IMG/VR virus record: IMGVR_UViG_3300031396_000155
Coordinates: 1 to 24,433 of that record
Length of the DNA stretch: 24,433 nt
Strand: one strand, 5' to 3'
DNA from: a virus
Positions 3,844-20,351 of the stretch are shown in pieces; position 1 is the first letter of the stretch, and the number at the start of each line of letters is the position of its first letter. The position numbers and the translations under genes were made by a program. The notes below the pieces were generated by a model. That model had not been told where the DNA came from. It searched no databases and saw nothing but the letters and a program-made list of their open reading frames with translations.

Positions 3844-4296
3844 ATGAATGCGGTCATAGAGCGCACCTTTGATACCGCTTTAGTGCGCTCTATATTGTCG
3901 AGCAAGCGCCTTAAAATCCGGATATCAGATATGCCGATAGAAGCGTTTGATCCTGAAAATCAGGAAAATATTTATTATCTGGTGTGCAAGCGTGGAAATA
4001 CTGCTATTGGTCTAATTGTGTTTCATGCTTTCAACAGCCTTGCGTGCTGCCAGGGGCACGTAAACTACCTTCCAGAATACTGGGGCGAGGACTTGCACAA
4101 GCACACAAAGAAGGCAATAGAATGGATCTTTGAGAACACGGATTTCATAAAGATAGTGGCACTGGTTCCGGATTATTACGCCATTGTCCTGAAACATGCA
4201 CTGGCAGCAGGCATGAAAAAAGAGGGATATTTGACCAACGCAGTAATATCCAACGGCAAGCCTGACAACATGACACTTTTAGGGATCGAAAAATGA
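3844..4296 (+). CDS. P22 gp14-like head-assembly-region protein (DUF2824-type, GNAT-like fold)
   Basis: This 150-residue protein starts directly after the previous stop (TAA-ATG), so it is probably translated by coupling. P22 gp14 belongs to DUF2824, is about the same length, and lies between genes 26 and 7 exactly as here. The visible pattern is acetyltransferase-like: an N-terminal helix, then IYYLVCKRGNTAIGLIVFH, then YWGEDLHKHTKKAIEWIFENTDFIKIVALVP, where a GNAT would bind acetyl-CoA, and the C-terminal YAIVLKHALAAGMKKEGYL, the usual 'neighbour-helix then GF.xEG' ending. The classic acetyl-CoA loop (QxxGxG/A) is not visible, so catalytic activity is uncertain. Its stop overlaps the sulfotransferase start (ATGA). 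Confidence 0.6.
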   Translation: MNAVIERTFDTALVRSILSSKRLKIRISDMPIEAFDPENQENIYYLVCKRGNTAIGLIVFHAFNSLACCQGHVNYLPEYWGEDLHKHTKKAIEWIFENTDFIKIVALVPDYYAIVLKHALAAGMKKEGYLTNAVISNGKPDNMTLLGIEK

Positions 4297-4928
4297 GCGA
4301 CGATGCCATTGTGACGTTCATTCGGATACCCAAGAACGCCAGCACGTCTCTGTATTCCTTTTTTGGAACAGCAAACACTGTCAGGAACGAGTACCTGAGC
4401 GCGGACAACCCGAAGCACCTTGGTATATTTGAGTCTTCGCACCAGAGCATATCCGAGCTACAGCATAACCTTGGCAGCTACATCCTGGAAAAACCTGTGC
4501 TTGCCGTGGTGAGGAACCCGTTTGATCGACTGGTATCCATGTACTTCTTCGCAAAAAAGCATGACCTTGGGAAAATATACGATATCGACACTAAAGATTT
4601 CCTAAGTTTTGCTAGGGGATTTCACCGATTCAGCAAGGATGAAAACTTTTTTCATGCAATTCCGCAAGTCAAATTTATGGAGCACGACCTAAGCTATCGG
4701 TTCACAGTGATTAGGTTTGAGGATCTGAAAGCAGGGATTAGGAAGTTTATAAAAGACTACGATCTTGATAATTGTTTTGACGCGGATAATTTGGAAACCC
4801 TCAACGGCACTGACCATTGTCACTATAGCGACTATTATGATGATGAGACAAAAGAGATTGTTAAAGATATGTGGGGGTGTGACCTAACCGCATTTTCCTA
4901 TTCGTTTCAAGAAAAAGGCCACAGGTGA
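4293..4928 (+). CDS. Phage-encoded sulfotransferase family protein
   Basis: A probable PAPS-dependent sulfotransferase of 211 residues, moving sulfate onto a hydroxyl of a carbohydrate or other acceptor. Both cofactor motifs are visible. Residues 12-20 (IPKNASTSL) form the 5'-phosphosulfate-binding loop, with K14 and the T18/S19 pair. Residues 74-84 (RNPFDRLVSMY) form the 3'-phosphate-binding segment, with R74 and S82. The C-terminus (YYDDETKEIVKDMWGCDLTAFSYSF) matches the usual end of the Sulfotransfer_2 family, so the domain looks complete. H50 is a possible catalytic base, which is inference. No signal or membrane segment is seen, so it acts in the cytoplasm or virion. It overlaps the gp14-like gene by ATGA. 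P22 has no gene here, so it is an accessory gene inside a conserved block. Confidence 0.8.
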   Translation: MSDDAIVTFIRIPKNASTSLYSFFGTANTVRNEYLSADNPKHLGIFESSHQSISELQHNLGSYILEKPVLAVVRNPFDRLVSMYFFAKKHDLGKIYDIDTKDFLSFARGFHRFSKDENFFHAIPQVKFMEHDLSYRFTVIRFEDLKAGIRKFIKDYDLDNCFDADNLETLNGTDHCHYSDYYDDETKEIVKDMWGCDLTAFSYSFQEKGHR

Positions 4929-4931
4929 CTT

Positions 4932-5639
4932 ATGGGTGTTGCAGGCGCAGTAGTTGGTAGCGCAGTAATTGGCGCGGGTGCATCTTATATGAGCAGCAAA
5001 AAACAATCCAAGGCAGCAGGTAAAGCTTCTGATGCTTCAGTAGCGGCAAATCGGGAAACGATCGCTTTTCAGAAACAAGTGTTTGCTCAACAAAGGGAGG
5101 ACAACGCGCCGTGGCGCGAGATTGGTGAACAGTCACTTGATCGCCTGCAAGCTGGTGTAGAGTCTGGCGAGTATGACCCCGGAAGATTCACTTTCGATTT
5201 TCAGGCAGATCCAAGCTACGCATTCAGAAAGCAGGAGGGGATCAATGCGCTGGACGCCAGCGCAGCAGCCCGTGGCCGTTTGCAGTCAGGCGCACAGGAT
5301 CGAGCCGTTACCCGCTACGCATCAAACCTTGCCAGCCAGGAATACGGCAACGCTTTCAATCGCGGCCTGACCCGTTACAACACCAACGCCAACAGGAAAC
5401 AAAACCAGTTTAATCGACTGGCGACCCTTTCAAACGTGGGGCAAGTGGCGAATCAGGCCGATGCGAATGCCCGGCAGACCATGGCCAGCAACGTAACTCA
5501 GGCCACACAGGCAAGCGGCAACGCATTGGCTCAAGGCGCAATTAACAAAGGCAACGCCCGTGCAAGCGCTTATCAGGGCATTAGCCAATCCATTAACCAG
5601 GGTGCGCAAAACTACCTGCTTTACGACGCATTAGGATAG
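4932..5639 (+). CDS. P22 gp7-like DNA-ejection (internal virion) protein
   Basis: This 235-residue protein (P22 gp7 is about 229) has the typical build: an Ala/Gly-rich hydrophobic N-terminus (GVAGAVVGSAVIGAGASY), a charged helix, and the family motif ANRETIAFQKQVFAQQREDNAPWREIGEQSLDRL. It continues with DPSYAFRKQEGINALDASAAARGRLQSGA and ends in a long Asn/Gln/Ala-rich helical stretch with ANRKQNQFNRLATLSNVGQ. In P22, gp7, gp20 and gp16 are packed in the head and released into the cell envelope to form the DNA conduit. The AGGT near 4923 lies at the end of the sulfotransferase gene. Family identity is from motif plus gene order. Confidence 0.82.
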   Translation: MGVAGAVVGSAVIGAGASYMSSKKQSKAAGKASDASVAANRETIAFQKQVFAQQREDNAPWREIGEQSLDRLQAGVESGEYDPGRFTFDFQADPSYAFRKQEGINALDASAAARGRLQSGAQDRAVTRYASNLASQEYGNAFNRGLTRYNTNANRKQNQFNRLATLSNVGQVANQADANARQTMASNVTQATQASGNALAQGAINKGNARASAYQGISQSINQGAQNYLLYDALG

Positions 5640-5648
5640 GGGGCCGGC

Positions 5649-6536
5649 ATGGCTAATCAGTTTGGTATTGATATGGGCCAGGTCTATAAAACGACCGAGG
5701 CCGTGAAAGGCTCCCGGCAGACCCGAAAGGCCAACGCATTGGCTATGGACTGGAAGAAAGAGGACCGGGAAAGCGCACGCCAGCGCAGCCAGACCATTAA
5801 CCAGTTGCGTGCAAAGGTGGCCGCAGGTGGTGAAGAAGGCAAGCAGGCAGAGCGCCAGCTGATTGCTTTCGCGCCGGAAGAAGCCACGAAAGTTCAGGAA
5901 GCCTTTGCCAACATGGACGAGCGCCAGCGCAAGCAGGCATCTGAAAACGTGGAAACCCTGGGCCGTGTCAGTACGTTTGTCCTGGAAGGGCAGACCGTTG
6001 AAGAACAGTCACAGCGCTATCAGCGTGCCCGTGCCAACCTTGCGCCGGAAATCGTCGCCAACATGCCAGAAGAATACGATCCCAATTTTGTGCAGATGGG
6101 ACTGGCGCGTGCCCGTGAGCTTGACGATATGCTGGAAAACCCCGAACAGATCACGTTTGGTGGAGAGGACCGGCTTTACAAGGATGGCAGGCAGATCGAG
6201 TCAACCACCAGCAACGCATTGCTGAAGCAACAAGCTGGCGGATCAGGCAGTGATTTCAAGTCGTCCGATGAAAACCTGATGTTCCGCCAGGCCGCAGAGT
6301 TGTTGGGTGGGATCTTTGACAAGCAGGGCAACCTTCAGAACCTGGACCCTGAGAACAGATCCAAGGTTCAGGCCATTACCACCAGGGCCGCGGGACTATT
6401 CCAGAGTGGGGAAACCCGGACCCGATCACAGGCCGTTACCGAGGCCGCCCGCCAGTTAGGCATAAGCGTGCAGAACCTTGGTGGTGGCGGTAGTATGGAC
6501 CGCAATCAGTTACTCGAAATGTACGGCACTCAGTGA
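5649..6536 (+). CDS. Helical internal virion protein in the P22 gene 20 slot
   Basis: This 295-residue, highly charged, Gln/Glu/Arg-rich protein is almost wholly helical (KKEDRESARQRSQTINQLRAKV, EEATKVQEAFANMDERQRKQ). It has no membrane segment. A purine-rich TAGGGGG box precedes the ATG. A middle strand-turn segment (ITFGGEDRLYKDGRQIESTT) divides two helical halves. The C-terminus has a Gly-rich hinge (NLGGGGSMD). It is much shorter than P22 gp20 (about 470), and I see no clear sequence match, so the ejection-protein role rests on its place between the gp7-like gene and the giant gene. Its TGA stop forms part of the giant gene's ribosome binding site. Confidence 0.65.
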   Translation: MANQFGIDMGQVYKTTEAVKGSRQTRKANALAMDWKKEDRESARQRSQTINQLRAKVAAGGEEGKQAERQLIAFAPEEATKVQEAFANMDERQRKQASENVETLGRVSTFVLEGQTVEEQSQRYQRARANLAPEIVANMPEEYDPNFVQMGLARARELDDMLENPEQITFGGEDRLYKDGRQIESTTSNALLKQQAGGSGSDFKSSDENLMFRQAAELLGGIFDKQGNLQNLDPENRSKVQAITTRAAGLFQSGETRTRSQAVTEAARQLGISVQNLGGGGSMDRNQLLEMYGTQ

Positions 6537-6543
6537 GGCAATA

Positions 6544-9500
6544 ATGAGCGAGAACCAGCAGCCTTCCAAGGATCAGCTATTAAACGCGCTTGAGAAGGCG
6601 CACCTTGCGGGAGACACCGAAGGGGCAAAAGAGCTGGCACGCTGGCACAACGAGCTTTACCAGGCGCAACCAGAGCCCGAACCAGAGCCGCAGCGCCGTG
6701 AACTGAACCTTCAGCCCGATACGGGCCGCAAAATTGCCGACGCCGGCCGCCGTGGTCCGGCGCCTGTGTCCGCACCTGCACCACCAGCAAGACAGCCAGA
6801 GCCGCAGAGAGGACCAAACGGAACAACCGGGAGCTATGCACCGCAGCCACAAACAGGTGGCGCTACTGGCTCTTATGATGACAGAGGCCAGCAAGTAAGC
6901 GCATTTGAGCCGACGCTGTGGGATCGTATAAAAGGAATAATCCCTTCGAACAAAGATGCGGCCGTAATGGAGCTAGAGGCCCGGAAGGTTGCAGAAGAAG
7001 AAGGCATATCAATAGATCAGGTTTATAAGAATATCGGTGTTAGCCGCCCTGTGTTTAACCCGGAGGGGCGCCCGACTGTTCAGGCACTTGCCGAAGCGAG
7101 CGAGATAACCGCCAAAGAGCTTCCCGACTTAATCCCTGGCGCAGTCAATACCGTTATGAGGGCTATTCGTGGTGGTGACGAAAGCGCTTCTGACGAGGGC
7201 TGGCTTGATCGTGCCATTTCTGCAACAGAGCCTGACCAGCCTGAAAACATGGACCCCAACTATCAGGCGTTCTATGGCGTAGGTAAATCGCTTGGATACA
7301 GCCTCAGCACAATGACCGCATCCGCCATAGCGGCAGCTTTAAGCGGGCTCGCTACAGCAAACCCGGCGATAGCGGCAGGCGCAGCAGGGGCAGCTGGTGG
7401 TGCAGTAGCTTATCGCGGTAGCCGTGATGAGTTTATTGGCAGAATAAAAGATGAGCTAGATAAAAAAGCCAAGTTCATTTACGGCAGGAAGCTGAATCAG
7501 GATGAGTGGGAAAAAGCATATTCTGAATTTGATGAAGCTGCAACGAAGTACGGAGCCTGGGAGGCAGTTCCAGAAGCCGTTGGTAACCTTATTTTCTTGC
7601 GTGCAATTTCAGCTCCACTGAAGGGAATTGGAAAACAGAAGGCGGCAGAGATTGCCAAGCGGGCAGCTTCTGTATGGGGAAGCGAGAACGTCACAGAGAC
7701 AACCACTGGCGTGGGCCAAAACAGGGCAGAGCTTGAGGCTGGACTTACCGATGAAGAGTTAACCGTAGCTGACGCATTCCGCAAGCAAGTAATACCGACC
7801 ACTATCGTAACCGGCCTCATGGGTGGCGCCGGAGCTGGCGTTAAAGCTGGTGTTGAAGCAACAAAATCCAGAGAAAGGAAAATAGGCGAGGCACTGGACC
7901 GTGCTGTAGATAGCTCAGAATTTGCGCCAGCAGATCAGTTTGCAACTGAAAGTCTTGATCCTTCCCGCGCACAAATGGAACAGGTGGGCACGCCGCAGCG
8001 TCCAAGCATGGCAGAGCTTGTGTCTCAGAAGATGAAGGAGCGGGGCTTTGATTTCACTCCGCAACAGGGGCAGATGCCGCCGAACGTCGACGTGCCGTTG
8101 CAGCCAAACATACCGCCAGCGACAGCTATTCCAGAATCCGAGCAAGAAGCTGACGACGCCAGCAGTGTAGGCATTGGTTCGCAAGTAACCTTTAACGGAA
8201 AGGATGAAACCGTTGCTGACGTAATGCCGCACCCTGACTCCGGAAAGGCGATGGTATCGTTTAAATCTTCGCCCAATCGTTATGTGTTTGCCAGCCAGAC
8301 GCAGCAAACAGCAACCGATGCCAAATCACCAAAACCCAATGACCTGGTAGACGAAGAGGGCCGAAATCGCTCACCTGCATCGCAGTCAGTAAAAGAATTT
8401 AAAGAAAAAACCGGACTTGGACAGGATGGAGTAAGAGCCTTACAAAAGTCGATCATGGAAGGCCAGCCTATAACTCTGGAAGAAGCCAAAAATATAGAAA
8501 TAAAAGAAAAAACACGCAGAGATCAGGAGCGTGAGAATTACAAAAATAGAGATCCAGACAAAGACCCGGTACTGAAACGAGAACGCAAAGCGCAGGCCGA
8601 GAGAAATGAATATAGAGATGGCGTGGATATTGAGCCTGGGATTTATAAACACAAAGACCTTGACGCCACATACGAAGTAACGGAAAGCGGCACTGTAATT
8701 TCTATTGGTCCAAACGGTGAGCGATCAGGTTACGGTGTAATAACTAAAAATAACGTTGATGAGGGTGGTGTGGCTTTCGCCAGCTATGTAAAACGAGGAA
8801 TTGTAAATCGACAGGATCAACAACCCGTTGATTTACAAGGCGCCGAAAATTTACCACCAGGTGGTAAAACTGGCCAGGCCGCCGATGATATAACGCCGCA
8901 GCAAAGCGAAATGCCCGGTAACGTCGACGTGCCGTTGCAGCCAAACATACCGCCAGCGACAGCTATTCCAGAATCCGAGCAAGAAGCTGACGACGCCAGC
9001 AGTGTAGGCATTGGTTCGCAAGTAACCTTTAACGGAAAGGATGAAACCGTTGCTGACGTAATGCCGCACCCTGACTCCGGAAAGGCGATGGTATCGTTTA
9101 AATCTTCGCCCAATCGTTATGTGTTTGCCAGCCAGACGCAGCAAACAGCAACCGATGCAAAAGAAGAAGTTTCCATTGCTGCTAAAGGCTCTAATCTGCC
9201 CGAAAAAACAGAAGTGGATAGCAGCAAGGACTTCAGTGCCCTGCAAAGCCGGGTAGATAATATCAACAAGGAAGTTGACGCCGAAAGAATCCGCGTTAAA
9301 TCCGAATCAGTAACCAGAGCAATCAATAACAGCCAGCTAAACGATCAGCAAAAGCAGGAATTGTTACGCCAGTTGCCAGAGGAAAGCACTAATGAACCTA
9401 CAGAACTGGATCAACCAGGCCAGGAGCCACTGGCAGGAGCACCGGCCGAAGTTTTACCAGAGCCTGAAGAAACAGGGGACGCTGGAACCGATGCTGAAAC

Positions 9501-12500
9501 AGGCAGCGGAGAGAACGTATCAGGAGGTCAGCCAGCTGGAGGACGCCGGGTATCAACCAGACGAGGCGTTTCAGATGGTGAGGGAAAAGTACCTGTTTCC
9601 CCCGGGGGAACCGGAGAACGATCGACCCGCCAGCAACGGGCCAGGGATTCTGAACGAGGCAATGAGGACGATGGGCAGGACGCTGGAAGTGGACAGCCCA
9701 CAACCCGAGGATCTGAGGAAGCCATAGATGCGACAGAAGAAGCGGCAGAAACGGCGCCAACGTCAAAAGGCGCAACAACGCAAAGAGCAGAGCCAGCAGG
9801 CGACCGCCCGGCCAAGTTCTTCACACTGACGCCGGAAATGAACATTGGTAGTGGCGGGGCCAAAACCAAGTTCAAAAACAATATCCGAGCCATTGAAACG
9901 CTGAAGCAGCTGAACGAGGAAGGCCGCCAGGCAACACCGGAGGAACAGCAGATCCTTGCCGGGTATGTCGGGTGGGGTGGTATCCCGCAGGCGTTTGTTG
10001 GTGAGAACGGCAAGATTACCAAGGGATGGGAGAAAGAAGCCAAGCAGCTGCAAGAGGTAATGACCGATGCAGAGTATGAGGCCGCCCGCCGCAGCACGCA
10101 GGATGCCCATTACACCAGCCCGGAGATTGTCACCGAGATTTGGCAGGCCGTTAAGAATATGGGCTTCCAAGGTGGCCGTGTGCTTGAGCCTTCCGTGGGA
10201 ACGGGCAATTTCCTGGGCTTTATGCCTGGTGGCGTGCGCAGCAAGAGCAGCATTGCCGGGGTGGAGTTGGATCATATCACCGGGGGCATTGCCCAAAAAC
10301 TCTATCCCGGAGCCAACATTCAGGCGCCGTTAGGATTCCAAGAGTTCACCATGCCGGATGGCTATTTTGATCTGGCCATTGGTAACCCGCCGTTTGGCAA
10401 CCAGAAGCTGTATGACGGCAAGCGCAAAGCCTTGTCAAAAATGAGCATCCACAACTACTTCTTTGCCAAGTCTATGGCCGGGCTAAAACCCAATGGCGTG
10501 CTGGCCATGGTCGTGTCCAGTCGCCTGATGGACGGCAACAACAAGATGGCGCGTGACTATCTGGCTGAGCAGGCGGATTTGTTGGGCGCCGTGCGACTGC
10601 CAAACAATGCCTTCCTGAAGAACGCGGGAACAGAGGTCACCACCGATATCATTTTCTTGCGCAAGCGCCGGGAAGGTGAAGCGCCGGCAGGTGATTCGTG
10701 GTCCGTGGTCAACACCGTGCAGGATGCCAAGGGCATTGATGTACCACTGAACGAATACTTCAGCCGCAATCCTGGAATGATGCTTGGTGAATGGGGCGCC
10801 TATGGCTCCATGTACGGGCCGAACGAACCCGCCCTGGTAGCCAAAGAGGGCCAAGACACCAACGCATTGCTGAAGGAAGCGCTGGCCAGTCTGCCCAAAG
10901 GATTCATGGACAAGGCAGGCGCCAACCCGGTACCGGAAGAAGTCGCCATACCTACCAACGTCGAGGACGTGAAGGTGGGCAGCATGTTCATGGACGGCGA
11001 TCAGATCAGCATTCGCCTGGAAGATGAAATGGGCAAGGCACGCTCTGAAGCCGTCGACGTGCCAAGCCAGAAAGCGGAAGAACGGGTAAAAGGTCTGATT
11101 AAGGTCCGGGACGTGTTCGCGGATCTGCGTAAGGCGCAGCTGACCGAAAACGTGAAAGATGAAGCGCTGGCGGCATTGCGGGACCGACTGAACCGCGCCT
11201 ATGACCAGTTCGTGAAGAAGAACGGGCCAATCAACCTGGACGCCAATAAGCGCCTGTTCCGGGATGATCCAACGTGGCCGCAGCTGGCCGCCCTGGAAGA
11301 ATCATACGATAAAGGTATCAGCGCGACTGTTGCCAAGCGCACCGGGGAAACCCCGCGCAAGCCGAGCGCCGAGAAGGCCGCCATCTTCAGGACCAGGACA
11401 CAGCAGCCATACAAGGCACCGGACAAAGCCAGCACAGCCAAAGACGCCATGACCGCCAGCCTATCCGAAAAAGGCCAGGTCGATATGCAGTACATGGCCG
11501 AGCTTTACGGCAAAACCGAAAGCGCCATTGTGGACGAGCTCGGGGATCTGGTTTTCGAGAGCTCACCGAATAATTGGGAATCCCGCGACGAATACCTGTC
11601 TGGCAACGTAAAGCAGAAGTTGGCCATGGCCGAGCGTATGGCCAAGGATATGCCGCGCTTCCAAAAGAACGTCGACGCCCTGAAAGAAGTGCAGCCGGAA
11701 GATATCGAGGCCGTTGATATCAAGGTGAAGCCCGGCGCCCACTGGTTGCCGCCCGAAGTGGTTACAGAATTTGCCGATCATATTCTTGGCAAAGCCAGCG
11801 GCAAGGCCACGTACAACCCGGTAATGGCCAAGTGGTCTGTCCGTGGTGAGCCCACAACCGCCGCCGCGAACCAGTACGGCACCGACCGGGCCAGCGTGTC
11901 AGATATCCTCACCGCCGCGGCAAACGACAAGAGCATTGTGATTCGTGACCGAATTGACGAAAGCACCACCGTAGTCAACGAATCCGCCACCAATGCCGCC
12001 AACGAAAAGATTCAGCGAGTAAAAACCGAGTTCCGCCGATGGATCTGGCGCGACGATGCACGCAGGGAAAGACTGACCAGGCTCTATAACGATACGTTCA
12101 ACACCGATCAGTTGCGCGAGTATGACGGATCGCACCTGACATTCCCCGGCAAGGTCAGTGACGACATTGTGAAGTTGCGGCCGCACCAGGTAAACGCGGC
12201 ATGGCGCATTGTGCAAAGCGGCACCACGTTGCTGGATCACGTAGTCGGCGCCGGTAAAACCTTCACCATGATTGCAGGCTCTATGGAGCTACGCCGCACG
12301 GGCCGGGCCAGGAAACCCATGTTTGTGGTTCCGAATCACCTGGTAGGCCAGTGGGCAGAAGATTTCACCAAGCTGTATCCGAACGCGAACATTCTGGCCG
12401 CCACCAAAAAAGACTTTGAGAAGGGCAACCGTAAGCGCCTGTTCGCCAGGATCGCCACCGGGGATTGGGACGCCGTGATTGTGGCGCATTCCTCGTTTGG

Positions 12501-15500
12501 CAAGGTCGAAATGGATGCAGAGTTTCAGGACCGCTTCATTAAGCAGCAGATCCGGGATATTGATACCGCTATATCGACTATCCGGGACCAAGAGGGCAAG
12601 GGCTCCCGATCCATTAAGCAGATCGAGAAGCAAAAGGAACGACTCGAGGAAAAGCTAAAGCGCCTGTATGACGCCGAAAACAAGGACGACAACCTGACGT
12701 TTGGTGAGTTGGGTATCGATGCCCTGTTTCTGGATGAAGCGCACGAGTTCAAGAACCTGGGATTTGCCACCAGCATGACCCGTGTGGCTGGCCTGGGTAA
12801 CCCGCAGGGAAGCCAGAAAGCCGCTGATATGTTTATGAAGGTGCAATCCATCCTTGAGCGCACTGGCGGCAACAACGTGGTATTTGCGACCGGCACGCCG
12901 ATCAGCAACACCATGGCCGAAATGTATACCATGCAGCGCTTCCTGGATTATCAGATGCTTCAGGACCAGGGCATTGCACACTTTGATGCCTGGGCTCGCA
13001 TGTACGGGGAAGTGGTCACCGATTGGGAGCTGTCACCAACCGGCAACTACAAACTGAACAGCCGCTTCAGCAAGTTCGTGAATCTGCCTGAGTTAATGCA
13101 GCGTTACCTGACTTTTGGTGACGTGATTAACCGGGACGATATCAATAAGCAGTTGGCGGCACAGGGCAAGCGCCTTCCCGTTCCCAAGATCAAGGGCGGC
13201 AAGCCCAATAACATCGTTGTGGAGCGCAGCGAGGACCAGGCCGATTACATAGGCGTGCCAGTCAAAGACGACAACGGCAGAGAAACCTATCCCAAGGGCT
13301 CACTGGTGTACCGGGCTGAACACTTGCCCAAGAAGCCAGAGAAAGGCGCGGATAACATGCTCAAGATAATGAGCGATGCCCGCAAGGCCGCCCTGGATAT
13401 GCGCCTGATTGACCCTGCACTGTACGGAGACAACCCCGACAGCAAGATCAACGTGGCCGCAGACCGGATAAAGACCCTGTACGACCAGTGGACCGCCGAC
13501 AAGGGCGCACAGCTGGTATTCATCGACCTGAGTACGCCAAAAGGCGCCAAGGCTCAGGAAGCGAACCGAATCCGTGACCTGATGCAGCGTGCGGAGAATG
13601 GCGACGAGGCCGCCAGCGAACAGCTGGACAAAATGAGCCCGGACGAATTTGAAGCGCTGGATGGTGATTTCAGCGTTTACGACGACTTGCGCCAGAAGCT
13701 GATCGACAAGGGTATCCCGGAATCTGAAATCGAATACATCCATAGCGCTAACACAGAGATTCAGAAGGCCGAACTGTTTGCCAAGGTGCGAACGGGCAGG
13801 GTGAGGGTGATGATGGGCTCCACCGCCAAGATGGGCGCCGGTATGAACGTGCAGACGCGCCTGGTGGCACTACACCACATGGATGCGCCGTGGCGTCCGT
13901 CTGACCTGGAACAGCGGGAAGGCCGGATTATCCGCCAGGGTAACGAGCTTTACGAGCGCGACCCGGACGGTTTTGAGATCGAGATTAACCGTTACGCCAC
14001 CAAGCAGACGCTGGATAGCCGTATGTGGCAGACCATCGAAACCAAAGCCAGGTTTATCGAGCAGGTGCGCAAAGGCAACACCAAGCAGCGCGAAATTGAG
14101 GACTTGGGCGCCGAATCGGCCAATGCCGCCGAAATGAAAGCCGCGTCCAGTGGTAATCCGCTGATCCTGGAAGAAATGGAGCTACGCCGGAAACTGCGAA
14201 CGCTTGAGCAAGCCGAAGAAGAACACGACCGCGAACAGTTCCGGATTCGTGACGCGATTCGTCGGGAGAAAAGCATTGTTGAGCGTGGCAAGGATCGCTT
14301 GCTGAAGTACGCGCAGGACGTGAAGAAGGCCAAGGCCGCGCCCAAAGACTTCACCATGACCGTGAACGGGCAGAAAATCGACAAGCAAAAGGTAGCGGGC
14401 CAGGAGATTCTGGCCGAAGCCAACAAGATGGAAAATTCTGGCGTTGAATCAAAAGCCATTGGCAGCTACGCCGGTTTTGATATGACCCTGGACAAAGTGA
14501 CTGGCCCTTTTTTAAATAACTACATGGTGACTCTGCAAGGCGCTATGGAGCACCAAATACAGATAAACGACATTTCTTCAGCTGACCCGGCCGGACTAAC
14601 GCGCAGAATTATCAACACGATATCGGCCATTGATGCAGAGGCAAAGCAGGCCGCCAAACGGGTGAGCCAGGCCGAAAAGGATCTACCGCAGCTGGAAGAA
14701 CAGGTAGGCGAATGGGATCAGGCCGACGAATTGGCCAAGGTCAAAGCCCGCCACCAGCTGGTAATTGCCGAATTGCAGCCGAAGAAAGACCCGGAGCCAG
14801 GGCAGGAGGACGCCACCAGCGCCATGATGAGCGATATGGGGGCGGATACACCTATGCCGCAATGGCAACCACCGTACAGCATGACCGGAGTTCCCCGGCG
14901 CCCTGACAGCGACCAGTTCAAGATTGGGGATCGCACCGTAAAGCTGAAGCCCGAGGAAAAGCCGACCCGCCGTGAAGGTATCCGCTTCATGTTGCAGGAT
15001 CTGATTGGCAAGCGGATCTATTTTGGCAAGGTCCGGGGCAAGTCAAAGCTAGGCTTCTACCGCAGCAGCAACAGCGAAGTGCGCGTTAAGAACTACGACG
15101 ATGTGGAGGTAATGGCGCACGAAATGGCGCACTACCTGGATATGCACTATCGCTACAACAAGCGCTTTACACGGGAGTACAAAGACAGCAAGTACCGCAA
15201 AGAAGTGGAAGCGTTGAGCTACACCAGCAAAAAGAACCTGAAGGCCAAAGAAGGTTTTGCCGAGTTCGTGCGCCTGTGGCTGACCAACTACAGCGAAGCC
15301 AAAGCCAGAGCCCCACTGTTCACGCAGCGCTTTGAAGAAGTAATGAAGGACGATGCTGTACTGAACCGCAAGATGAAGCGCTTGCAGGATGAAATGCACC
15401 GCTGGTATTTGCAGGGGCCACGGGCACAGCTACGGGCCAAGTCTGGCCGGGAGTTGACCGCACAGCAGCAGATCCTGGAATACCAGAACAGCTATCCGCT

Positions 15501-18135
15501 TGAGCGTTACCGCCAGCAGGTGATTGATAAGATTCATGCCGCCAAGGTGGTAGAGCGCACGCTGAAAGGCGAAGTAGGCGATGCCGTCGTGAGCCCGTAC
15601 AAGCAGTTTCAGATGGTCAACGGGGCAGAATCCGTGCATGAGGCTGTGATTAAAAACGGCACGCCGCGCCTGACCGATGAAGGCTATTACGAGTTTAGCG
15701 GCAAAGGACTTAATGAAATCTTTAAGCCAGCCAGCAAACACGGATGGCGCCGGTTTGATGATCTGATGGAGTATTTCAAGGCACGCCGGGGCCAGGAGCT
15801 ACGCAAGCAGGGCCGGGAGAATCTGTTTACCGAGCAGGAGATTGACGCCGGTTTGTCCCTGGGCCAGAAATTCCCGGAGTTTCCGCAGATATTCTCTGAG
15901 TTCCAGAAATTCAACGACCGAATGCTCGAGTTCTATGTGGATATGGGGCTGATAGACGAAAGCCAGCGCGATGCATTCAAAAAGATGAACCAGAACTACG
16001 TGCCTTTCCATCGTGTGATTGAGCGGATCGAGGACGGCCACGAAATGGGCGTTAGCGAAATCGGCAGGCGCCTGACCGGGGGCACGCAGAATACCAAGGA
16101 TATCGCTGAAAACATCGTTGAGAGCATTCAGACCAATATCCGAGCCGCGATCATTGCCCGCGCCAAGGCTACGCTCTACAACGACATTATGGACAGCCAG
16201 GATGGCGCCCTGTTTGCCGCCAGGATTGCACCGGACAGCAAGAAGGTGAAGGTAGAGCAGGCACAGATGGCGTCCAAGATGGCCGAAGCCATGGTCGAAA
16301 TGGGGCTCACTGTCAGCAAAGACGGAATGATAATGGCCGGAGATCCGGACGCACAGATCACGGACGTTGAAGATATCGCGGCAATCCTGGAAGAAAACCC
16401 CGGACTGTTGAGCTTCTGGACGTTTGGCCACAAACCGCAGACTACGGAAACCTATGTGGACAGCGCCGTGGTCAACGGCAAGCGCGTGTACTTTGAAGTG
16501 CATGAGCCATTGCTGGTGGAAATGCTTACCGGCCTGAGAGGGCTACGCAGTGGCGCCGTGATGAATGCCCTGTTTCGGGTGAAGAACCTTCAGACCCGAA
16601 CCGTAACCAGTATGTTTCAGTTCCTGGGGCCGAACGCAGTAAGGGATACCGTGAGTGCGTCCATAATGAGCCGCAACCGATTTATCCCGATCTACAGCAC
16701 GCTGAAGGGCATGGGACACTTCATGTTCAACACGCAGACCTACAAGGACTTCAGGCTGCAAGGGGGCGGATACGGCACCAGGATCGAGGCCAGGACACAG
16801 GAAACCCGCGACCGGCGCCGTCTGGACTTGCCGAGTGAGTCGGCATGGGATGCGGCCGCAAAGTTGCTAGCCGGATGGGACCGCTTCACCAGCGCGTTTG
16901 AGTACGGATCGCGCATTGGTGATTACGAGGTTGGCGTGAAGTCTGGCACGTCTCCGATGGAGGCCGCCTGGGAAGCCAGAGAGATTGCCACCGACTTTAG
17001 CAAAATGGGCCGCAATGAGTTGTGGGCTAATTTCCTTCGCACTGTTCCGTTTATGAACGCCGGTATTCAGGGCCTGGACAAGTCAGCCAGGGAGTTGGTC
17101 GAAATGAAAGGCGAAATGAAGGGCGCCAACTTTGCCAAAATGACCGACAAGAAGGCCGCTTTTCTGATGAAAGGTGGCGTGCTGACGGCCATGACCGCCA
17201 TTCTGTGGTTGCTGAATCACGACGACGAGCGATACAAGCAGCTGACGCCGGACCAGAAAGCCCGCTTCTGGTGGATCTTTCCGCCAGGTGCAGACACGCC
17301 GTTCAAGATTCCGCGCCCGTATGACGTGGGCCATATCTTTGGAACCCTTCCGGAAGTCGGTTTGGACTACATGGAGAACCGGGACGGCAAAGAAGCATCC
17401 GAGCACTTGGCCTGGGCACTGGTCAACACTGTGGGCATTGGTGACTATCCCGGCATCCTTCAGCCATGGATCGAAGTTCAGCGTAACGAGAAGTTCACCG
17501 GGGCGCCCGTGGTCCCTCAGTTTATGATGGACCTGCCCGCCGAATACCAGTACACCGATCGCACGCCGATCATGTACCGGAAATTGGGCGAGTACCTGGG
17601 TGTATCGCCACTGGTGGCCGAGCATTACAGCAAAGGCTTCTTGCGCTACGTGGAGATGATTGTTGCGGATGCTTCAGAGGCCGCACTGTGGAAAACAGAC
17701 GAATGGGGACCGCGCCCGTTTAACCGAGGCACGCCTATCGACTACATGACGCACCAGTTCGTGGGCCAGAAAGTGCCATACCGCACAAAATGGACAGAAG
17801 GGTATTGGGATCTGAAAGTGAAGGCCGCCGCCGCACAGCAGACGTTCAACATGCTCAAGCGTGAGGCCATCCGTAATCCGAGCAAAGCGCCGGACTTTGC
17901 CAGTGAAAAGGTCAATCAGATTCTTATAGGGCTCAACGGGGCCTTCAGTCAGGTCGACAGCGCTTTTTCAGATCAGCAGGAAATCATTGCCTCGTACAAA
18001 TACAACGAGAACATGACCGCTGAAGAAAAAGAAGCCAAGATCGAAAGCTACTACGAGCAGAAAAACGAGACACTATCTAAGGTCTACCGCCAGGCCAAAG
18101 AAGCACTGGAACAAGTACACGTAGAAATGCCGTAG
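6544..18135 (+). CDS. Giant polyvalent protein: ejection-like N-terminus, N6-adenine methylase, SNF2 helicase, zinc peptidase, LPD38-like C-terminus
   Basis: This is a 3863-residue protein in the P22 gene 16 slot. The ATG at 6544 has GAGG at 6535-6538, made by the upstream stop; starts further upstream lack this. Residues 1-110 have a short helix (AHLAGDTEGAKELARWHN) then a Pro/Gln-rich linker. About 250-290 is hydrophobic Ala/Gly, like ejection proteins. Residues 514-593 and 793-872 are an exact duplicate. About 950-1090 is disordered. From 1092 comes the N6-adenine methylase: motif I at 1213-1225 (LEPSVGTGNF), NPPF at 1281-1284. The helicase has GAGKT at 1902-1906, DEAH at 2064-2067, ATGTP at 2115-2119 and QREGRIIRQG at 2457-2466. 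After coiled coils, HEMAH at 2859-2863 with EGFAE at 2903-2907 marks a gluzincin-type peptidase. The end, from about 3340, resembles LPD38. Known relatives are thought to be injected with the DNA and protect it; that role here is inference. Confidence 0.88.
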   Translation: MSENQQPSKDQLLNALEKAHLAGDTEGAKELARWHNELYQAQPEPEPEPQRRELNLQPDTGRKIADAGRRGPAPVSAPAPPARQPEPQRGPNGTTGSYAPQPQTGGATGSYDDRGQQVSAFEPTLWDRIKGIIPSNKDAAVMELEARKVAEEEGISIDQVYKNIGVSRPVFNPEGRPTVQALAEASEITAKELPDLIPGAVNTVMRAIRGGDESASDEGWLDRAISATEPDQPENMDPNYQAFYGVGKSLGYSLSTMTASAIAAALSGLATANPAIAAGAAGAAGGAVAYRGSRDEFIGRIKDELDKKAKFIYGRKLNQDEWEKAYSEFDEAATKYGAWEAVPEAVGNLIFLRAISAPLKGIGKQKAAEIAKRAASVWGSENVTETTTGVGQNRAELEAGLTDEELTVADAFRKQVIPTTIVTGLMGGAGAGVKAGVEATKSRERKIGEALDRAVDSSEFAPADQFATESLDPSRAQMEQVGTPQRPSMAELVSQKMKERGFDFTPQQGQMPPNVDVPLQPNIPPATAIPESEQEADDASSVGIGSQVTFNGKDETVADVMPHPDSGKAMVSFKSSPNRYVFASQTQQTATDAKSPKPNDLVDEEGRNRSPASQSVKEFKEKTGLGQDGVRALQKSIMEGQPITLEEAKNIEIKEKTRRDQERENYKNRDPDKDPVLKRERKAQAERNEYRDGVDIEPGIYKHKDLDATYEVTESGTVISIGPNGERSGYGVITKNNVDEGGVAFASYVKRGIVNRQDQQPVDLQGAENLPPGGKTGQAADDITPQQSEMPGNVDVPLQPNIPPATAIPESEQEADDASSVGIGSQVTFNGKDETVADVMPHPDSGKAMVSFKSSPNRYVFASQTQQTATDAKEEVSIAAKGSNLPEKTEVDSSKDFSALQSRVDNINKEVDAERIRVKSESVTRAINNSQLNDQQKQELLRQLPEESTNEPTELDQPGQEPLAGAPAEVLPEPEETGDAGTDAETGSGENVSGGQPAGGRRVSTRRGVSDGEGKVPVSPGGTGERSTRQQRARDSERGNEDDGQDAGSGQPTTRGSEEAIDATEEAAETAPTSKGATTQRAEPAGDRPAKFFTLTPEMNIGSGGAKTKFKNNIRAIETLKQLNEEGRQATPEEQQILAGYVGWGGIPQAFVGENGKITKGWEKEAKQLQEVMTDAEYEAARRSTQDAHYTSPEIVTEIWQAVKNMGFQGGRVLEPSVGTGNFLGFMPGGVRSKSSIAGVELDHITGGIAQKLYPGANIQAPLGFQEFTMPDGYFDLAIGNPPFGNQKLYDGKRKALSKMSIHNYFFAKSMAGLKPNGVLAMVVSSRLMDGNNKMARDYLAEQADLLGAVRLPNNAFLKNAGTEVTTDIIFLRKRREGEAPAGDSWSVVNTVQDAKGIDVPLNEYFSRNPGMMLGEWGAYGSMYGPNEPALVAKEGQDTNALLKEALASLPKGFMDKAGANPVPEEVAIPTNVEDVKVGSMFMDGDQISIRLEDEMGKARSEAVDVPSQKAEERVKGLIKVRDVFADLRKAQLTENVKDEALAALRDRLNRAYDQFVKKNGPINLDANKRLFRDDPTWPQLAALEESYDKGISATVAKRTGETPRKPSAEKAAIFRTRTQQPYKAPDKASTAKDAMTASLSEKGQVDMQYMAELYGKTESAIVDELGDLVFESSPNNWESRDEYLSGNVKQKLAMAERMAKDMPRFQKNVDALKEVQPEDIEAVDIKVKPGAHWLPPEVVTEFADHILGKASGKATYNPVMAKWSVRGEPTTAAANQYGTDRASVSDILTAAANDKSIVIRDRIDESTTVVNESATNAANEKIQRVKTEFRRWIWRDDARRERLTRLYNDTFNTDQLREYDGSHLTFPGKVSDDIVKLRPHQVNAAWRIVQSGTTLLDHVVGAGKTFTMIAGSMELRRTGRARKPMFVVPNHLVGQWAEDFTKLYPNANILAATKKDFEKGNRKRLFARIATGDWDAVIVAHSSFGKVEMDAEFQDRFIKQQIRDIDTAISTIRDQEGKGSRSIKQIEKQKERLEEKLKRLYDAENKDDNLTFGELGIDALFLDEAHEFKNLGFATSMTRVAGLGNPQGSQKAADMFMKVQSILERTGGNNVVFATGTPISNTMAEMYTMQRFLDYQMLQDQGIAHFDAWARMYGEVVTDWELSPTGNYKLNSRFSKFVNLPELMQRYLTFGDVINRDDINKQLAAQGKRLPVPKIKGGKPNNIVVERSEDQADYIGVPVKDDNGRETYPKGSLVYRAEHLPKKPEKGADNMLKIMSDARKAALDMRLIDPALYGDNPDSKINVAADRIKTLYDQWTADKGAQLVFIDLSTPKGAKAQEANRIRDLMQRAENGDEAASEQLDKMSPDEFEALDGDFSVYDDLRQKLIDKGIPESEIEYIHSANTEIQKAELFAKVRTGRVRVMMGSTAKMGAGMNVQTRLVALHHMDAPWRPSDLEQREGRIIRQGNELYERDPDGFEIEINRYATKQTLDSRMWQTIETKARFIEQVRKGNTKQREIEDLGAESANAAEMKAASSGNPLILEEMELRRKLRTLEQAEEEHDREQFRIRDAIRREKSIVERGKDRLLKYAQDVKKAKAAPKDFTMTVNGQKIDKQKVAGQEILAEANKMENSGVESKAIGSYAGFDMTLDKVTGPFLNNYMVTLQGAMEHQIQINDISSADPAGLTRRIINTISAIDAEAKQAAKRVSQAEKDLPQLEEQVGEWDQADELAKVKARHQLVIAELQPKKDPEPGQEDATSAMMSDMGADTPMPQWQPPYSMTGVPRRPDSDQFKIGDRTVKLKPEEKPTRREGIRFMLQDLIGKRIYFGKVRGKSKLGFYRSSNSEVRVKNYDDVEVMAHEMAHYLDMHYRYNKRFTREYKDSKYRKEVEALSYTSKKNLKAKEGFAEFVRLWLTNYSEAKARAPLFTQRFEEVMKDDAVLNRKMKRLQDEMHRWYLQGPRAQLRAKSGRELTAQQQILEYQNSYPLERYRQQVIDKIHAAKVVERTLKGEVGDAVVSPYKQFQMVNGAESVHEAVIKNGTPRLTDEGYYEFSGKGLNEIFKPASKHGWRRFDDLMEYFKARRGQELRKQGRENLFTEQEIDAGLSLGQKFPEFPQIFSEFQKFNDRMLEFYVDMGLIDESQRDAFKKMNQNYVPFHRVIERIEDGHEMGVSEIGRRLTGGTQNTKDIAENIVESIQTNIRAAIIARAKATLYNDIMDSQDGALFAARIAPDSKKVKVEQAQMASKMAEAMVEMGLTVSKDGMIMAGDPDAQITDVEDIAAILEENPGLLSFWTFGHKPQTTETYVDSAVVNGKRVYFEVHEPLLVEMLTGLRGLRSGAVMNALFRVKNLQTRTVTSMFQFLGPNAVRDTVSASIMSRNRFIPIYSTLKGMGHFMFNTQTYKDFRLQGGGYGTRIEARTQETRDRRRLDLPSESAWDAAAKLLAGWDRFTSAFEYGSRIGDYEVGVKSGTSPMEAAWEAREIATDFSKMGRNELWANFLRTVPFMNAGIQGLDKSARELVEMKGEMKGANFAKMTDKKAAFLMKGGVLTAMTAILWLLNHDDERYKQLTPDQKARFWWIFPPGADTPFKIPRPYDVGHIFGTLPEVGLDYMENRDGKEASEHLAWALVNTVGIGDYPGILQPWIEVQRNEKFTGAPVVPQFMMDLPAEYQYTDRTPIMYRKLGEYLGVSPLVAEHYSKGFLRYVEMIVADASEAALWKTDEWGPRPFNRGTPIDYMTHQFVGQKVPYRTKWTEGYWDLKVKAAAAQQTFNMLKREAIRNPSKAPDFASEKVNQILIGLNGAFSQVDSAFSDQQEIIASYKYNENMTAEEKEAKIESYYEQKNETLSKVYRQAKEALEQVHVEMP
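8083..8321 (+). repeat. Copy 1 of a perfect 239-bp direct repeat inside the giant gene
   Basis: By direct comparison, bases 8083-8321 and 8920-9158 are identical over 239 bp. The offset of 837 bp is 279 codons, so the duplication is in frame. It encodes a Pro-rich lead (NVDVPLQPNIPPATAIP) and a small beta domain (GSQVTFNGKDETVADVM, then GKAMVSFKSSPNRYVF). Diverged similarity (TPQQ..MP.NV) extends about 25 bases upstream of each copy. Confidence 0.97.
8920..9158 (+). repeat. Copy 2 of the perfect 239-bp direct repeat
   Basis: Identical to 8083-8321. The 598 bp between the copies is visibly richer in A and T than its surroundings, especially 8395-8600, and encodes a Lys/Glu-rich helix plus a second small beta domain (GIYKHKDLDATYEVTESG). 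Recombination between copies would remove 837 bp without changing the reading frame. Confidence 0.97.
9392..9727 (+). CDS. Nested gene in the +1 frame of the giant ORF; 111-residue probable phage protein
   Basis: An ATG at 9392 is preceded by AGAGG at 9378-9382 (9-base spacing). The product begins MNLQNWINQARSHWQEHRPK and continues with KQAAERTYQEVSQLEDAGYQ and EAFQMVREKYLFPPGEPEND. This amphipathic, Trp-containing, mainly helical protein looks globular and resembles small conserved phage proteins I have seen with a WxxxR-type helix and a 'VREKYLFP' end; function unknown. By hand count about 77 percent of its third codon positions are G or C, as expected for this phage. In the same bases the giant frame has A-rich third positions, many GGA, CGA and AGA codons, and only a Gly/Glu/Ser/Thr-rich linker. 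The nested frame therefore looks like the older coding frame. An in-frame TAA at 9338 makes a frameshift product less likely than separate initiation. Confidence 0.6.
   Translation: MNLQNWINQARSHWQEHRPKFYQSLKKQGTLEPMLKQAAERTYQEVSQLEDAGYQPDEAFQMVREKYLFPPGEPENDRPASNGPGILNEAMRTMGRTLEVDSPQPEDLRKP
9728..9829 (+). CDS. Possible second nested micro-ORF, very basic 33-residue peptide
   Basis: The ATG directly follows the TAG of the 111-codon nested ORF and has GAGGA at 9715-9719, 8 bases upstream. The product starts MRQKKRQKRRQRQKAQQRKE and ends at a TGA at 9827. It is almost all Lys, Arg and Gln for 20 residues, which could bind nucleic acid. The same bases in the giant frame encode an Ala/Glu/Thr linker, so base composition alone could produce such a peptide. 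It is reported because of the adjacent start, ribosome binding site and frame shared with the preceding nested ORF. Confidence 0.28.
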   Translation: MRQKKRQKRRQRQKAQQRKEQSQQATARPSSSH

Positions 18136-18170: not shown

Positions 18171-20351
18171 ATGGCAGCATCAATTATTGGTCCCAAGTTC
18201 TACGCATGGGACAGCGACACTGGCGCACCGTTGGCATTTGGCAAAGTGTTTACCTACCAGGCAGGCACCAACACGCCAAAAGCAACGTTTCAAAGCGAGG
18301 ATGGCGTCACAGCCAATGCCAACCCTACCATTTTGAATGGTGCGGGCTATGCAAATATCTACCTTGACGGCAGTTACAAGGTAGTCGTCAAAGACGCTGA
18401 TGATGTTGAAGTGTGGACTTCTGATCCTGTTACTGATCCTTCCGGACTGCAAAAAGAATGGATCAATGAGCGTGCGGCAACACAGGTATCACCTACGAGC
18501 TTTTCTATTGTAGGAAACCACACAGACGTTTATACCGCAGGAAAAGCGTTGCAGCTTGACGATGCAAGCTACCTATACGGGTATGTCGATAGCGTTACCT
18601 ACGTTGGCGGCAATACAGTAGTAGAGGTTCTATCGGACGATCCTTTAACCGGATCTTTGACCCGATCCTGGACCGGCATCGCAAGCATGAATAGCTTGCC
18701 TCAGGCCCTATCGGGGAGCTCTGAAAGCCTGCAAGACGCAGTAAGCAAGCGGGTAATTCGCGTCACAAGCGTATCTGACCTACTTGCGCTTGCAACACCT
18801 ACGCAAGGCAGTCAGGTTTCAACCTTTAGTTATCACTCAGGCTTTTTAGAAGGGGGTGGAGTTTACTATTGGGATTCCACAAAAAGTAAAGCAGACCACA
18901 ATGGAGGAACCGTACTCGACCCCGGCAAATCTTTTCCAGATTGGGCAGTTGATGCTGAAGTTGAGCAATGGTTTACTGCTGACGGCGCTGGTGACGGGTG
19001 CTGGATAAGGTCAGTATATACGAATGCTGCATTTGCATTTGGCGCATTTAGTTCAGGCACTAACGACAATAGCCGACAAATACAAAGCTGTGTTGACTCC
19101 CTTGGCAGATGTGTAATAGAAGTGAGTACAACGGTTAAAAGAATGATTGAGCTTAATAGCGGTACAGCACTATACCTTACTGCTACGGGAAGATTAATTA
19201 AGCCTTCTGGATTAGGAACCGATCCTGTTGTATGGATTAAAGGACTTGTTTCCAATGTAATTGGTGAAGGACAGCGCTCTGCCATAGTCAGCCTAAGTGA
19301 TTGCCCGTTTGGCATTATTCGTATGGGCATGAAAGATATGTTTGATACTGGAAGCACTGTATCTTATTCAGGAGTAAGGAACTGTGCTGTTCAGGGGCCA
19401 ACGGCTTACGGCAATGCGTCAGGAGATACAAACAAAGGTATCTACATGGCAGCGGCTCAGATTAGTAGCTCCGCTGTAGTTTACTTCAATCACGTACGAG
19501 ATGTGTGGTTTAAAGACTTAAACACAGCGCTTAGTCTTAACGGTTGGGCTAATGCCAATCAGTTTTCTGGCATTCAATTATACCGCTGTGGTAATGGTAG
19601 TCATCCATCGGACGGCAGATTTGCGATGCATTGGAATGGTGCTCAGGAATGTACTCTTTCAGAAGTGTTTCACCATTTTTCCCCTGATGCCTTTACGCTA
19701 GTAGTAGAAAATTTAACCGGCGAAGGCGGCGTCCCAGCAAGAAACTATTTTCCACAATACAATAACTTTGACCTAATTTCAGAGCAAGGAGGTTACAACG
19801 CTAGGTGCTTAGTTGTTAGAGGAGGGGCAAGAAATCGCTATTTTGTTCATCGCAACGTAAACAGAGCAAACGAGCTTCCTTCAAACTTTTTTGAAACCAA
19901 CAGTATTTACTCTGCTGGGGACGCTTCTCTTAGCAAGCTAAACACTGTCGCTTCATCTGTTTCTGGGCGGACTGAGTTGGCAGGCACAACTTTAATTCAG
20001 AGCGCAAAAGTAGTCGGCACAGAAGCAGTAGAAAAAGATCTGTTGACTGTATCATTAATATTCGACGACGCGGCGTTTGTTAAAATATCTGGAACAGCTA
20101 AAGCAACCGCACTAGATGAGACTTCCGTTTTTAGTTATGAGTGGGCCGTGCAAAGAGTAGGAGCAATCTATACAATAACTCAAATTTCTGGAACTACTGT
20201 AGGAACGGCAGGATCTATTGGATTTACTGACGGAACAGAAGCTAAGTTTCATTTTACCCCTACGAACAATGGAACGGGCACTGACGTAGACATTAACTAC
20301 AATGTTCTAACAACTCTTGCAAATACTGATGACGCCGAAATTCCTGTATGA
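18171..20351 (+). CDS. Tailspike / tail fibre with podovirus head-binding N-terminus and beta-helix body
   Basis: A receptor-binding protein of 726 residues with AGGAG 8 to 12 bases before the ATG. Residues 1-100 carry the common podovirus attachment domain: GPKFYAWDSDTGAPLAFGKVFTYQAGT, NPTILNGAGYANIYLDGSYKV and VWTSDPV. From about residue 215 comes an SDLLALATPTQGSQV-type neck. The body from about 295 (NDNSRQIQSCVDSLG) to 580 has repeated strand-turn units typical of a right-handed parallel beta-helix (pectate-lyase-like), often a polysaccharide depolymerase. The last 110 residues form a separate beta domain, probably the trimerisation end. No catalytic residues can be assigned by eye. Its position matches P22 gene 9. 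From about 18830 the base composition is more AT-rich than in the upstream gene, suggesting the body was acquired separately from the conserved N-terminus. Confidence 0.82.
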   Translation: MAASIIGPKFYAWDSDTGAPLAFGKVFTYQAGTNTPKATFQSEDGVTANANPTILNGAGYANIYLDGSYKVVVKDADDVEVWTSDPVTDPSGLQKEWINERAATQVSPTSFSIVGNHTDVYTAGKALQLDDASYLYGYVDSVTYVGGNTVVEVLSDDPLTGSLTRSWTGIASMNSLPQALSGSSESLQDAVSKRVIRVTSVSDLLALATPTQGSQVSTFSYHSGFLEGGGVYYWDSTKSKADHNGGTVLDPGKSFPDWAVDAEVEQWFTADGAGDGCWIRSVYTNAAFAFGAFSSGTNDNSRQIQSCVDSLGRCVIEVSTTVKRMIELNSGTALYLTATGRLIKPSGLGTDPVVWIKGLVSNVIGEGQRSAIVSLSDCPFGIIRMGMKDMFDTGSTVSYSGVRNCAVQGPTAYGNASGDTNKGIYMAAAQISSSAVVYFNHVRDVWFKDLNTALSLNGWANANQFSGIQLYRCGNGSHPSDGRFAMHWNGAQECTLSEVFHHFSPDAFTLVVENLTGEGGVPARNYFPQYNNFDLISEQGGYNARCLVVRGGARNRYFVHRNVNRANELPSNFFETNSIYSAGDASLSKLNTVASSVSGRTELAGTTLIQSAKVVGTEAVEKDLLTVSLIFDDAAFVKISGTAKATALDETSVFSYEWAVQRVGAIYTITQISGTTVGTAGSIGFTDGTEAKFHFTPTNNGTGTDVDINYNVLTTLANTDDAEIPV

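Follow-up and report, generated by a model that had tools for sequence, protein, structure and literature searches.

A virus record of 24,433 bases from IMG/VR, called the window here and analyzed over its whole length, carries one giant gene in the place that gene 16 holds in phage P22. We asked what kind of protein this gene encodes and whether that protein enters the cell with the phage DNA or acts in some other way.

The giant gene and its product

The ORF at 6544 to 18135 on the plus strand translates without a stop into 3863 residues, and its frame is open from 6478. It lies among the following genes.

29 to 1321, plus strand: head closure protein Hc3 (gp10 type); PHROG; frame open to the record start
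1275 to 2729, plus strand: tail fiber/needle-slot protein; PHROG
3844 to 4296, plus strand: gp14-type head morphogenesis protein; Pfam, PHROG
4932 to 5639, plus strand: gp7-type DNA ejection protein; PHROG 598, E = 1.8e-50
5649 to 6536, plus strand: gp20-slot protein of PHROG 36852, a function-unassigned family; PHROG
6544 to 18135, plus strand: giant polyvalent protein, 3863 aa; ORF translation, Pfam, PHROG
18171 to 20351, plus strand: tail fiber in the gp9 slot; PHROG

The order Hc3 / tail / gp14 / gp7 / gp20 slot / giant / tail fiber is that of P22 (10-26-14-7-20-16-9), with the giant gene directly 3′ of the gp7-type and gp20-slot genes and before the tail fiber gene. The first-pass annotation had placed the protein in the gp16 ejection slot, adjacent to gp7- and gp20-like genes. 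The position is borne out and PHROG identifies the gp7-type neighbor, but "gp20-like" is true of position only: the gp20-slot protein and P22 gp20 gave an hhalign probability of 0.4, with no homology detected (profile against single sequence). Nor was homology to P22 gp16 detected when a profile of the C-terminal module, the only part compared, was set against the single gp16 sequence (probability 0.1). We use "gp16 slot" as a positional term.

Along the giant chain we distinguish these features.

6544 to 6669, plus strand: leader, residues 1 to 42, candidate capsid-targeting signal; near-identity across loci, P1 DarB analogy
6883 to 8154, plus strand: N-module, residues 114 to 537, helical, glycine rich; profile matches to BA3-, VvAW1-, and LASTA-type N termini
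8049 to 8325, plus strand: 277-nt direct repeat, copy 1; sequence comparison
8886 to 9162, plus strand: 277-nt direct repeat, copy 2, 95% identical; sequence comparison
9361 to 14853, plus strand: DarB-like core, residues 940 to 2770; PHROG 10089, BLASTP to P1 DarB
10342 to 10587, plus strand: N6-adenine methylase (Eco57I family) with GNPPFG; Pfam, motif
12169 to 12756, plus strand: first lobe of the SNF2/ResIII ATPase with GAGKT and DEAH; Pfam, motifs
13711 to 13941, plus strand: second lobe, Helicase_C, with QREGRIIRQG; Pfam, motif
14875 to 18132, plus strand: C-module, residues 2778 to 3863; conserved across proteins of differing cargo, model pLDDT 84.9
14962 to 15363, plus strand: zincin-type metallopeptidase part, residues 2807 to 2940, with HEMAH/EGFAE; motif, structure alignment
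17224 to 17685, plus strand: LPD38 domain, residues 3561 to 3714; Pfam

Pfam matches above the curated cut-offs were found for an Eco57I methylase at residues 1267 to 1348 (E = 8.5e-11), for ResIII and SNF2 at residues 1876 to 2071 (E = 8e-10 and 2e-7), for Helicase_C at residues 2390 to 2466 (E = 5e-7), and for LPD38 at residues 3561 to 3714 (E = 3e-34, 119 bits against a cut-off of 27). The motifs GNPPFG (residue 1280), HVVGAGKT (1899), LDEAHEFKN (2063), QREGRIIRQG (2457), HEMAH (2859), and EGFAE (2903) are all in place. Methylase, SNF2 motor, zincin motif, and LPD38 are unrelated domains in a single phage-encoded chain, which makes this a polyvalent protein. The first-pass annotation had read the ORF as just such a chain, with an intact methylase, an intact SNF2 helicase, a zinc-peptidase signature, and an LPD38-like C terminus, and our analysis confirmed each of these parts. 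Pfam found no T7-like RNA polymerase domain in it.

The methylase and the motor behind it lie in a region that PHROG 10089, "DarB-like antirestriction," covers from residue 852 to residue 2833 (E = 0), and three blocks of this core, comprising methylase and SNF2, share homology with P1 DarB (BLASTP E values of 1e-22, 3e-16, and 4e-8). GNPPF is kept in 10 of 11 aligned cores, the exception being P1 DarB itself with GNVPF; QREGRIIRQG is also kept in 10 of 11. P1 DarB differs further in its length (2255 aa), in belonging to a myophage, and in being encoded in a separate operon. A search of solved structures by sequence with the core gave nothing convincing. Because of its Pfam and PHROG domains and its homology to P1 DarB, the giant protein can be assigned to the DarB-like polyvalent class (PMC5512222) on every sequence-based count.

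The nearest named relative is gene 1 of Vibrio phage VvAW1 (AFH14473), 72% identical over 2926 residues and in the same genomic place. The two phages share the gene order, the leader, the DarB-like core (72.9%), and the C-module (69%), and the VvAW1 gene is likewise a single ORF, of 3640 aa. It differs in being 223 residues shorter and in having another type of N-module, so that window residues 114 to 439 find no match of their own type there. VvAW1 gene 1 is already annotated as "DNA methylase" or "DarB-like antirestriction"; the genome paper (PMC3558961), which draws a comparison between VvAW1 and P22, gives its product as DNA methylase (COG4646). The kind of protein is therefore a known one: the giant joins the DarB-like polyvalent proteins, and close relatives of it are already on record.

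Histories of the core and the ends

In whole-chain BLAST searches, different parts of the protein matched different phages. Residues 940 to 2760 matched the giants of Erwinia phage PEp14 (59%) and Klebsiella phage LASTA (57%), whose other ends were unmatched, with the exception that LASTA also matched residues 114 to 421. Residues 2778 to 3861 matched BA3-type phages at 37 to 38%, whose cores were unmatched. The Pavtokvirus and Lastavirus giants (PEp14, Pavtok, and LASTA) thus have cores that align to that of the window at 59 to 60% identity, and LASTA has the window's own N-module type (about 45 to 46% identity over residues 114 to 421), but they differ by an N-terminal lytic transglycosylase domain (SLT) and LPD39 in LASTA, and none has a BLAST match to the C-module. 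Thalassomonas phage BA3 and its kin (1.211, FGH, and X14) share the structural operon, the gp20-slot protein (41%), and the C-module, but have an unrelated methylase region, without an SNF2 motor, in place of the core. A more distant relative, gp69 of Burkholderia phage JC1 (Bcep22-like, Lessievirus), contains SLT, LPD3, a DarB-like core 34.9% identical to that of the window, and LPD38. LPD38 is common to both proteins, whereas JC1-type phages have 61-kb genomes and the N-terminal SLT and LPD3 of gp69 were not found in the window protein.

We then computed identity along the giant protein in 150-residue windows. Against PEp14 it was 51 to 86% over residues 1051 to 2550 and then 20 to 34%; against L070, one of the loci from our scans of viral contigs, it was 65 to 95% over 1051 to 2850 and then 35 to 49% from 3001 onward. 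Locus L060 gave 81 to 98% from 1051 to the C-terminal end, yet 20 to 49% over residues 1 to 900. Against L090 (IMG/VR 3300006920_000023), no such window exceeded 43% before residue 2850, and values of 57 to 67% held from there to 3750. The L090 protein has 1619 residues, with a C-module 60% identical to that of the window and only 125 residues between its modules; its first 532 residues had no Pfam match.

Phylogenies of the two parts disagree. In the core tree (13 rows, 1830 columns), the window, L060, L070, and L094 form a single clade with full support. In the C-module tree, made by a quick search on 18 rows and 1096 columns, the window and L060 join the VvAW1-type rows, apart from L070 and L094. 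For clades picked after the identities were known, and in trees with long branches, AU tests rejected a constraint that joined VvAW1-type rows to the window and L060 in the core tree (P = 0.0003) and the grouping of the four loci in the C-module tree (P = 0.0009, at a cost of 316 log units). The conflict agrees with module exchange. Together with the 150-residue identities, it indicates that a carrier (the N- and C-modules) and a cargo (the core) are evolutionarily exchangeable; judged by sequence, the giant is mosaic, its ends having a history separate from that of its enzymatic core. Earlier work has described both mosaic ejection proteins (PMC8954989) and polyvalent proteins with shuffled domains (PMC5512222). 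A limited literature search, and hence a weak negative, turned up no published account of a conserved gp16-slot carrier on which the cargo is exchanged.

Terminal modules and cargo across viral contigs

The first 40 or so residues are near-identical in the window, VvAW1, L060, L070, L094, and L020, and the N-modules behind them are of three types. Since the N-terminal 30 residues of P1 DarB suffice to carry a reporter into the capsid (PMC9024508), the leader is a candidate packing signal. Within the first 90 residues of ORFs with a C-module, two leader types, AL..AH.AGD..GAKELA and FR..NPQY.D..DD.L, recur before different modules or cargo. They fit 11 and 25 of the 64 full ORFs found among the best 80 of 293 loci and 17 and 7 of 1121 other ORFs, counts that are descriptive and not a test because the patterns were composed after the sequences had been inspected.

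A profile of the N-module built from the window alone had 5 rows; profiles seeded with BA3 and VvAW1 had 88 and 87. The first-pass annotation had called this N terminus ejection-like. It matched no named ejection family, but the module is conserved in giants of this class. Its structural model is mostly helical at low confidence (pLDDT 56.8), too poor for fold comparison, and by a simple hydropathy scan it has no strong membrane helix; the sole segment above the hydropathy threshold in the whole protein is at residues 3539 to 3557. Both copies of the 277-nt repeat sit inside the linker from the N-module to the core. Each is backed by a separate contig, since L014 (97.7% identity with the window as far as residue 640 or so) spans copy 1 and L059 (100% over its first 382 residues) spans copy 2.

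The C-module model is confident (pLDDT 84.9, pTM 0.81, 49 sequences). A Foldseek search of the PDB found no match at E = 0.001, so the module as a whole is unlike any solved structure, and a profile search against the sequences of solved structures gave nothing convincing. Among predicted viral proteins, Foldseek returned 73 matches, the named ones being LPD proteins and fusions with methylase, RelA/SpoT, or transglycosylase. Residues 29 to 163 of the model align to zincin peptidases with middling Z scores of up to 7.0; structural alignments elsewhere in the model reflected common helical arrangements and were set aside. HExxH with its downstream glutamate fits this fold, and HExxH is kept in all 37 of the 49 C-module rows that extend over the site, the remaining 12 stopping short of it. 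Because the motif is present in 51 of the 64 full ORFs among the best 80 of 293 loci, including L090 with almost no cargo, the zincin is part of the carrier and not simply one more cargo. LPD38 is described as known only from phage-type polyvalent proteins (PMC5512222).

We scanned viral contigs with the gp20-slot family and obtained 45 loci, some of which are near duplicates or belong to the named phages. Three of the 45 had no detected downstream ORF; at the other 42, the ORF that follows has a match to one or more segments of the giants. Eleven of these 42 have a window-type core (54 to 89% identity where mostly covered, 68% where cut) and 17 a BA3-type core (56 to 100%), while 10 ORFs are cut before the core. 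The remaining 4 (L027, L039, L040, and L047) have no strong match to either core, two of them matching part of the BA3 core weakly at 31 to 32%.

A second scan, with the C-module, was followed up for the best 80 of 293 loci, which comprise 64 5′-complete and stop-free ORFs (60 distinct), 15 cut ORFs, and 1 with an internal stop. The N-module is present in 43 of these 64 full ORFs, at 125 to 2696 residues from the C-module. Their fetched flanks contain the gp20-slot gene in 36 cases, gp7 in 33, and both in 32, and in all 32 the order is gp7, gp20 slot, giant. The C-module also lives in other genomic contexts, since neither gene accompanies 13 of the 40 loci whose upstream sequence extends for at least 2.5 kb (gp20 slot in 26, gp7 in 25). 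Genome contigs yielded 14 further relatives, none with gp7 or a gp20-slot gene in the flank; the cargo of the four that were scanned includes methylase plus SNF2, ART, and ddrB-ParB.

Cargo was surveyed with Pfam in 19 chosen ORFs, over the parts upstream of the C-module. We found SNF2 in L074; ddrB-ParB, RadC, and RelA/SpoT (the last just below the cut-off) in L099; PBECR3 in L103 and L107; ART in L106 and L108; GGDEF in L102, L105, L106, L112, and L123; RadC in L102 and L106; pyrophosphatase in L129; and methylase-like matches below or near the cut-off in L126. Seven of the 19 (L077, L090, L097, L100, L101, L114, and L118) had no Pfam cargo. Both gp7 and the gp20-slot gene lie upstream of L099, L100, L103, L107, and L108. 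The N- and C-modules thus recur beside gp7 and the gp20 slot around a DarB-like core, an unrelated methylase, ParB/RadC/RelA, PBECR3, ART, or as little as 125 residues.

At one locus the place is filled differently. Vibrio phage 1.184 (13275 to 16993) has the BA3 structural operon with a gp20-slot protein bearing a new C-terminal half, and an unrelated 819-residue protein stands where the giant would be. This protein fell into no PHROG family, and as a candidate P22 gp16 homologue it gave no match. Phage 1.184 possibly represents a carrier-free state.

Probable packaging and injection, and the proposed site of action

The first proteins to leave the virion in P22 and T7 are three that assemble into a conduit, with gp16 reaching the inner membrane and cytoplasm (PMC8954989, PMC8402733). 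We consider it likely that, in a podovirus of P22 type, the giant protein serves as the third ejection protein, occupying the place of P22 gp16 and delivering a DarB-type enzyme. Its packaging is well supported by analogy, because JC1 gp69, with its DarB-like core and LPD38, was detected in CsCl-purified virions by 51 unique peptides (PMC9144972, Table 6) and P1 DarB is itself a virion protein (PMC9024508). Packaging and injection are what we infer as best fitting the giant protein, and the simplest reading is that, like JC1 gp69, it would be an ejection protein bringing a DarB enzyme in with the DNA. Pavtok gp27, too, is described as a very large putative ejection protein with partial homology to a P1 ejection protein (PMC8402733). 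Like P22 gp16 and the virion RNA polymerase of N4 and DEV, the giant is the third and largest member of a three-gene ejection set, the DEV polymerase being described in a preprint as an enzyme between helical ends (PMC10925440). It differs from P22 gp16 and the N4 polymerase in having no sequence match to them as far as the C-module was compared (N4 gp50: probability 0.8, no match, profile against single sequence).

Such a protein would be taken up into the procapsid, with its leader and terminal modules as the probable means of packing. At infection it would pass out of the portal together with gp7 and the gp20-slot protein or following them, in a wholly or partly unfolded state. Its terminal modules, both helical, may then aid DNA passage across the envelope, the role that gp16 plays in P22 and T7, while the central methylase and SNF2 motor would reach the cytoplasm, move along the DNA as it enters, and methylate it in cis, leaving type I-like restriction enzymes ineffective on it. 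Methylation and protection by the core are predicted from its likeness to DarB, which is on record as shielding P1 DNA in cis against type I restriction (PMC5512222, PMC9024508). The P1 Dar system requires several proteins (PMC9024508, PMC9144972), and protection could need only part of the giant chain. The first-pass annotation had gone further in proposing that the protein could act on incoming DNA before any host defense responds, a reading that is too strong as it stands. The C-terminal zincin may cleave the chain and release the enzyme: self-processing has been suggested for such peptidase domains by Iyer et al. (PMC5512222), and the position of the zincin at the cargo/carrier border is compatible with it.

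A virion protein need not act at once, and its methylase-motor core might instead work after entry on host or replicated phage DNA, as an epigenetic switch or in host takeover. The known domains of the giant are enzymatic only, and elsewhere the same carrier bears cargo not aimed at restriction, namely PBECR3, ART, GGDEF, and RelA/SpoT. Homology of the core to DarB, with its recorded cis effect, argues the other way, and we regard action after entry as unlikely. We hold it much less probable still that the late-operon place is incidental and that the protein stays in the cell, methylating phage DNA before packaging. A methylase made late would protect progeny DNA too, but the virion location of JC1 gp69 speaks against this, as do the conserved adjacency to gp7 and the gp20-slot gene and the methylase-free proteins, such as that of L090, that hold the same slot. 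Restriction systems also combine a methylase with an SF2 motor, and the giant could on that account be a type I/III-like or BREX-like restriction or superinfection-exclusion enzyme against other phages. We rate this as the slightest of chances: a Pfam search of the chain gave no nuclease family at E = 0.01, and both the carrier, which is of virion type, and the late operon fit it poorly.

Delivery of a DarB-type enzyme by an ejection protein leaves the role of the ends themselves to be considered. Leader, N-module, and zincin-LPD38 C-module may together make up, in the gp16 slot of phages resembling P22, a carrier that suffices by itself for protein injection. Ejection would be its older job, and its passengers would be interchangeable (the DarB methylase-motor, other methylases, ParB/RadC/RelA, the PBECR3 ribonuclease, an ADP-ribosyltransferase, GGDEF, pyrophosphatase, or almost none) and possibly freed by the zincin at the cargo/carrier border. 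Our confidence in this proposal is evenly divided. Single injected chains that join an ejection function to a counterdefense enzyme are known and have been little tested. Natural variants with the same neighbors and full, different, or nearly no cargo offer ready comparisons for the part of the ends in DNA entry and of the enzyme on a restricting host, and they bear on whether an arbitrary protein could enter a bacterium with the help of these ends. LPD38 gains a concrete candidate role, in packing and ejection.

Two further features of the window lie outside the giant gene. A sulfotransferase-like gene (4293 to 4928; Sulfotransfer_2, E = 1e-7) separates the gp14-type gene from the gp7-type gene in the late operon, and the JC1 late operon has a PAPS reductase at a similar place. 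Downstream of the late operon, at 21640 to 23071 on the minus strand, are genes for a P-like helicase loader and for primosomal/replication initiation.
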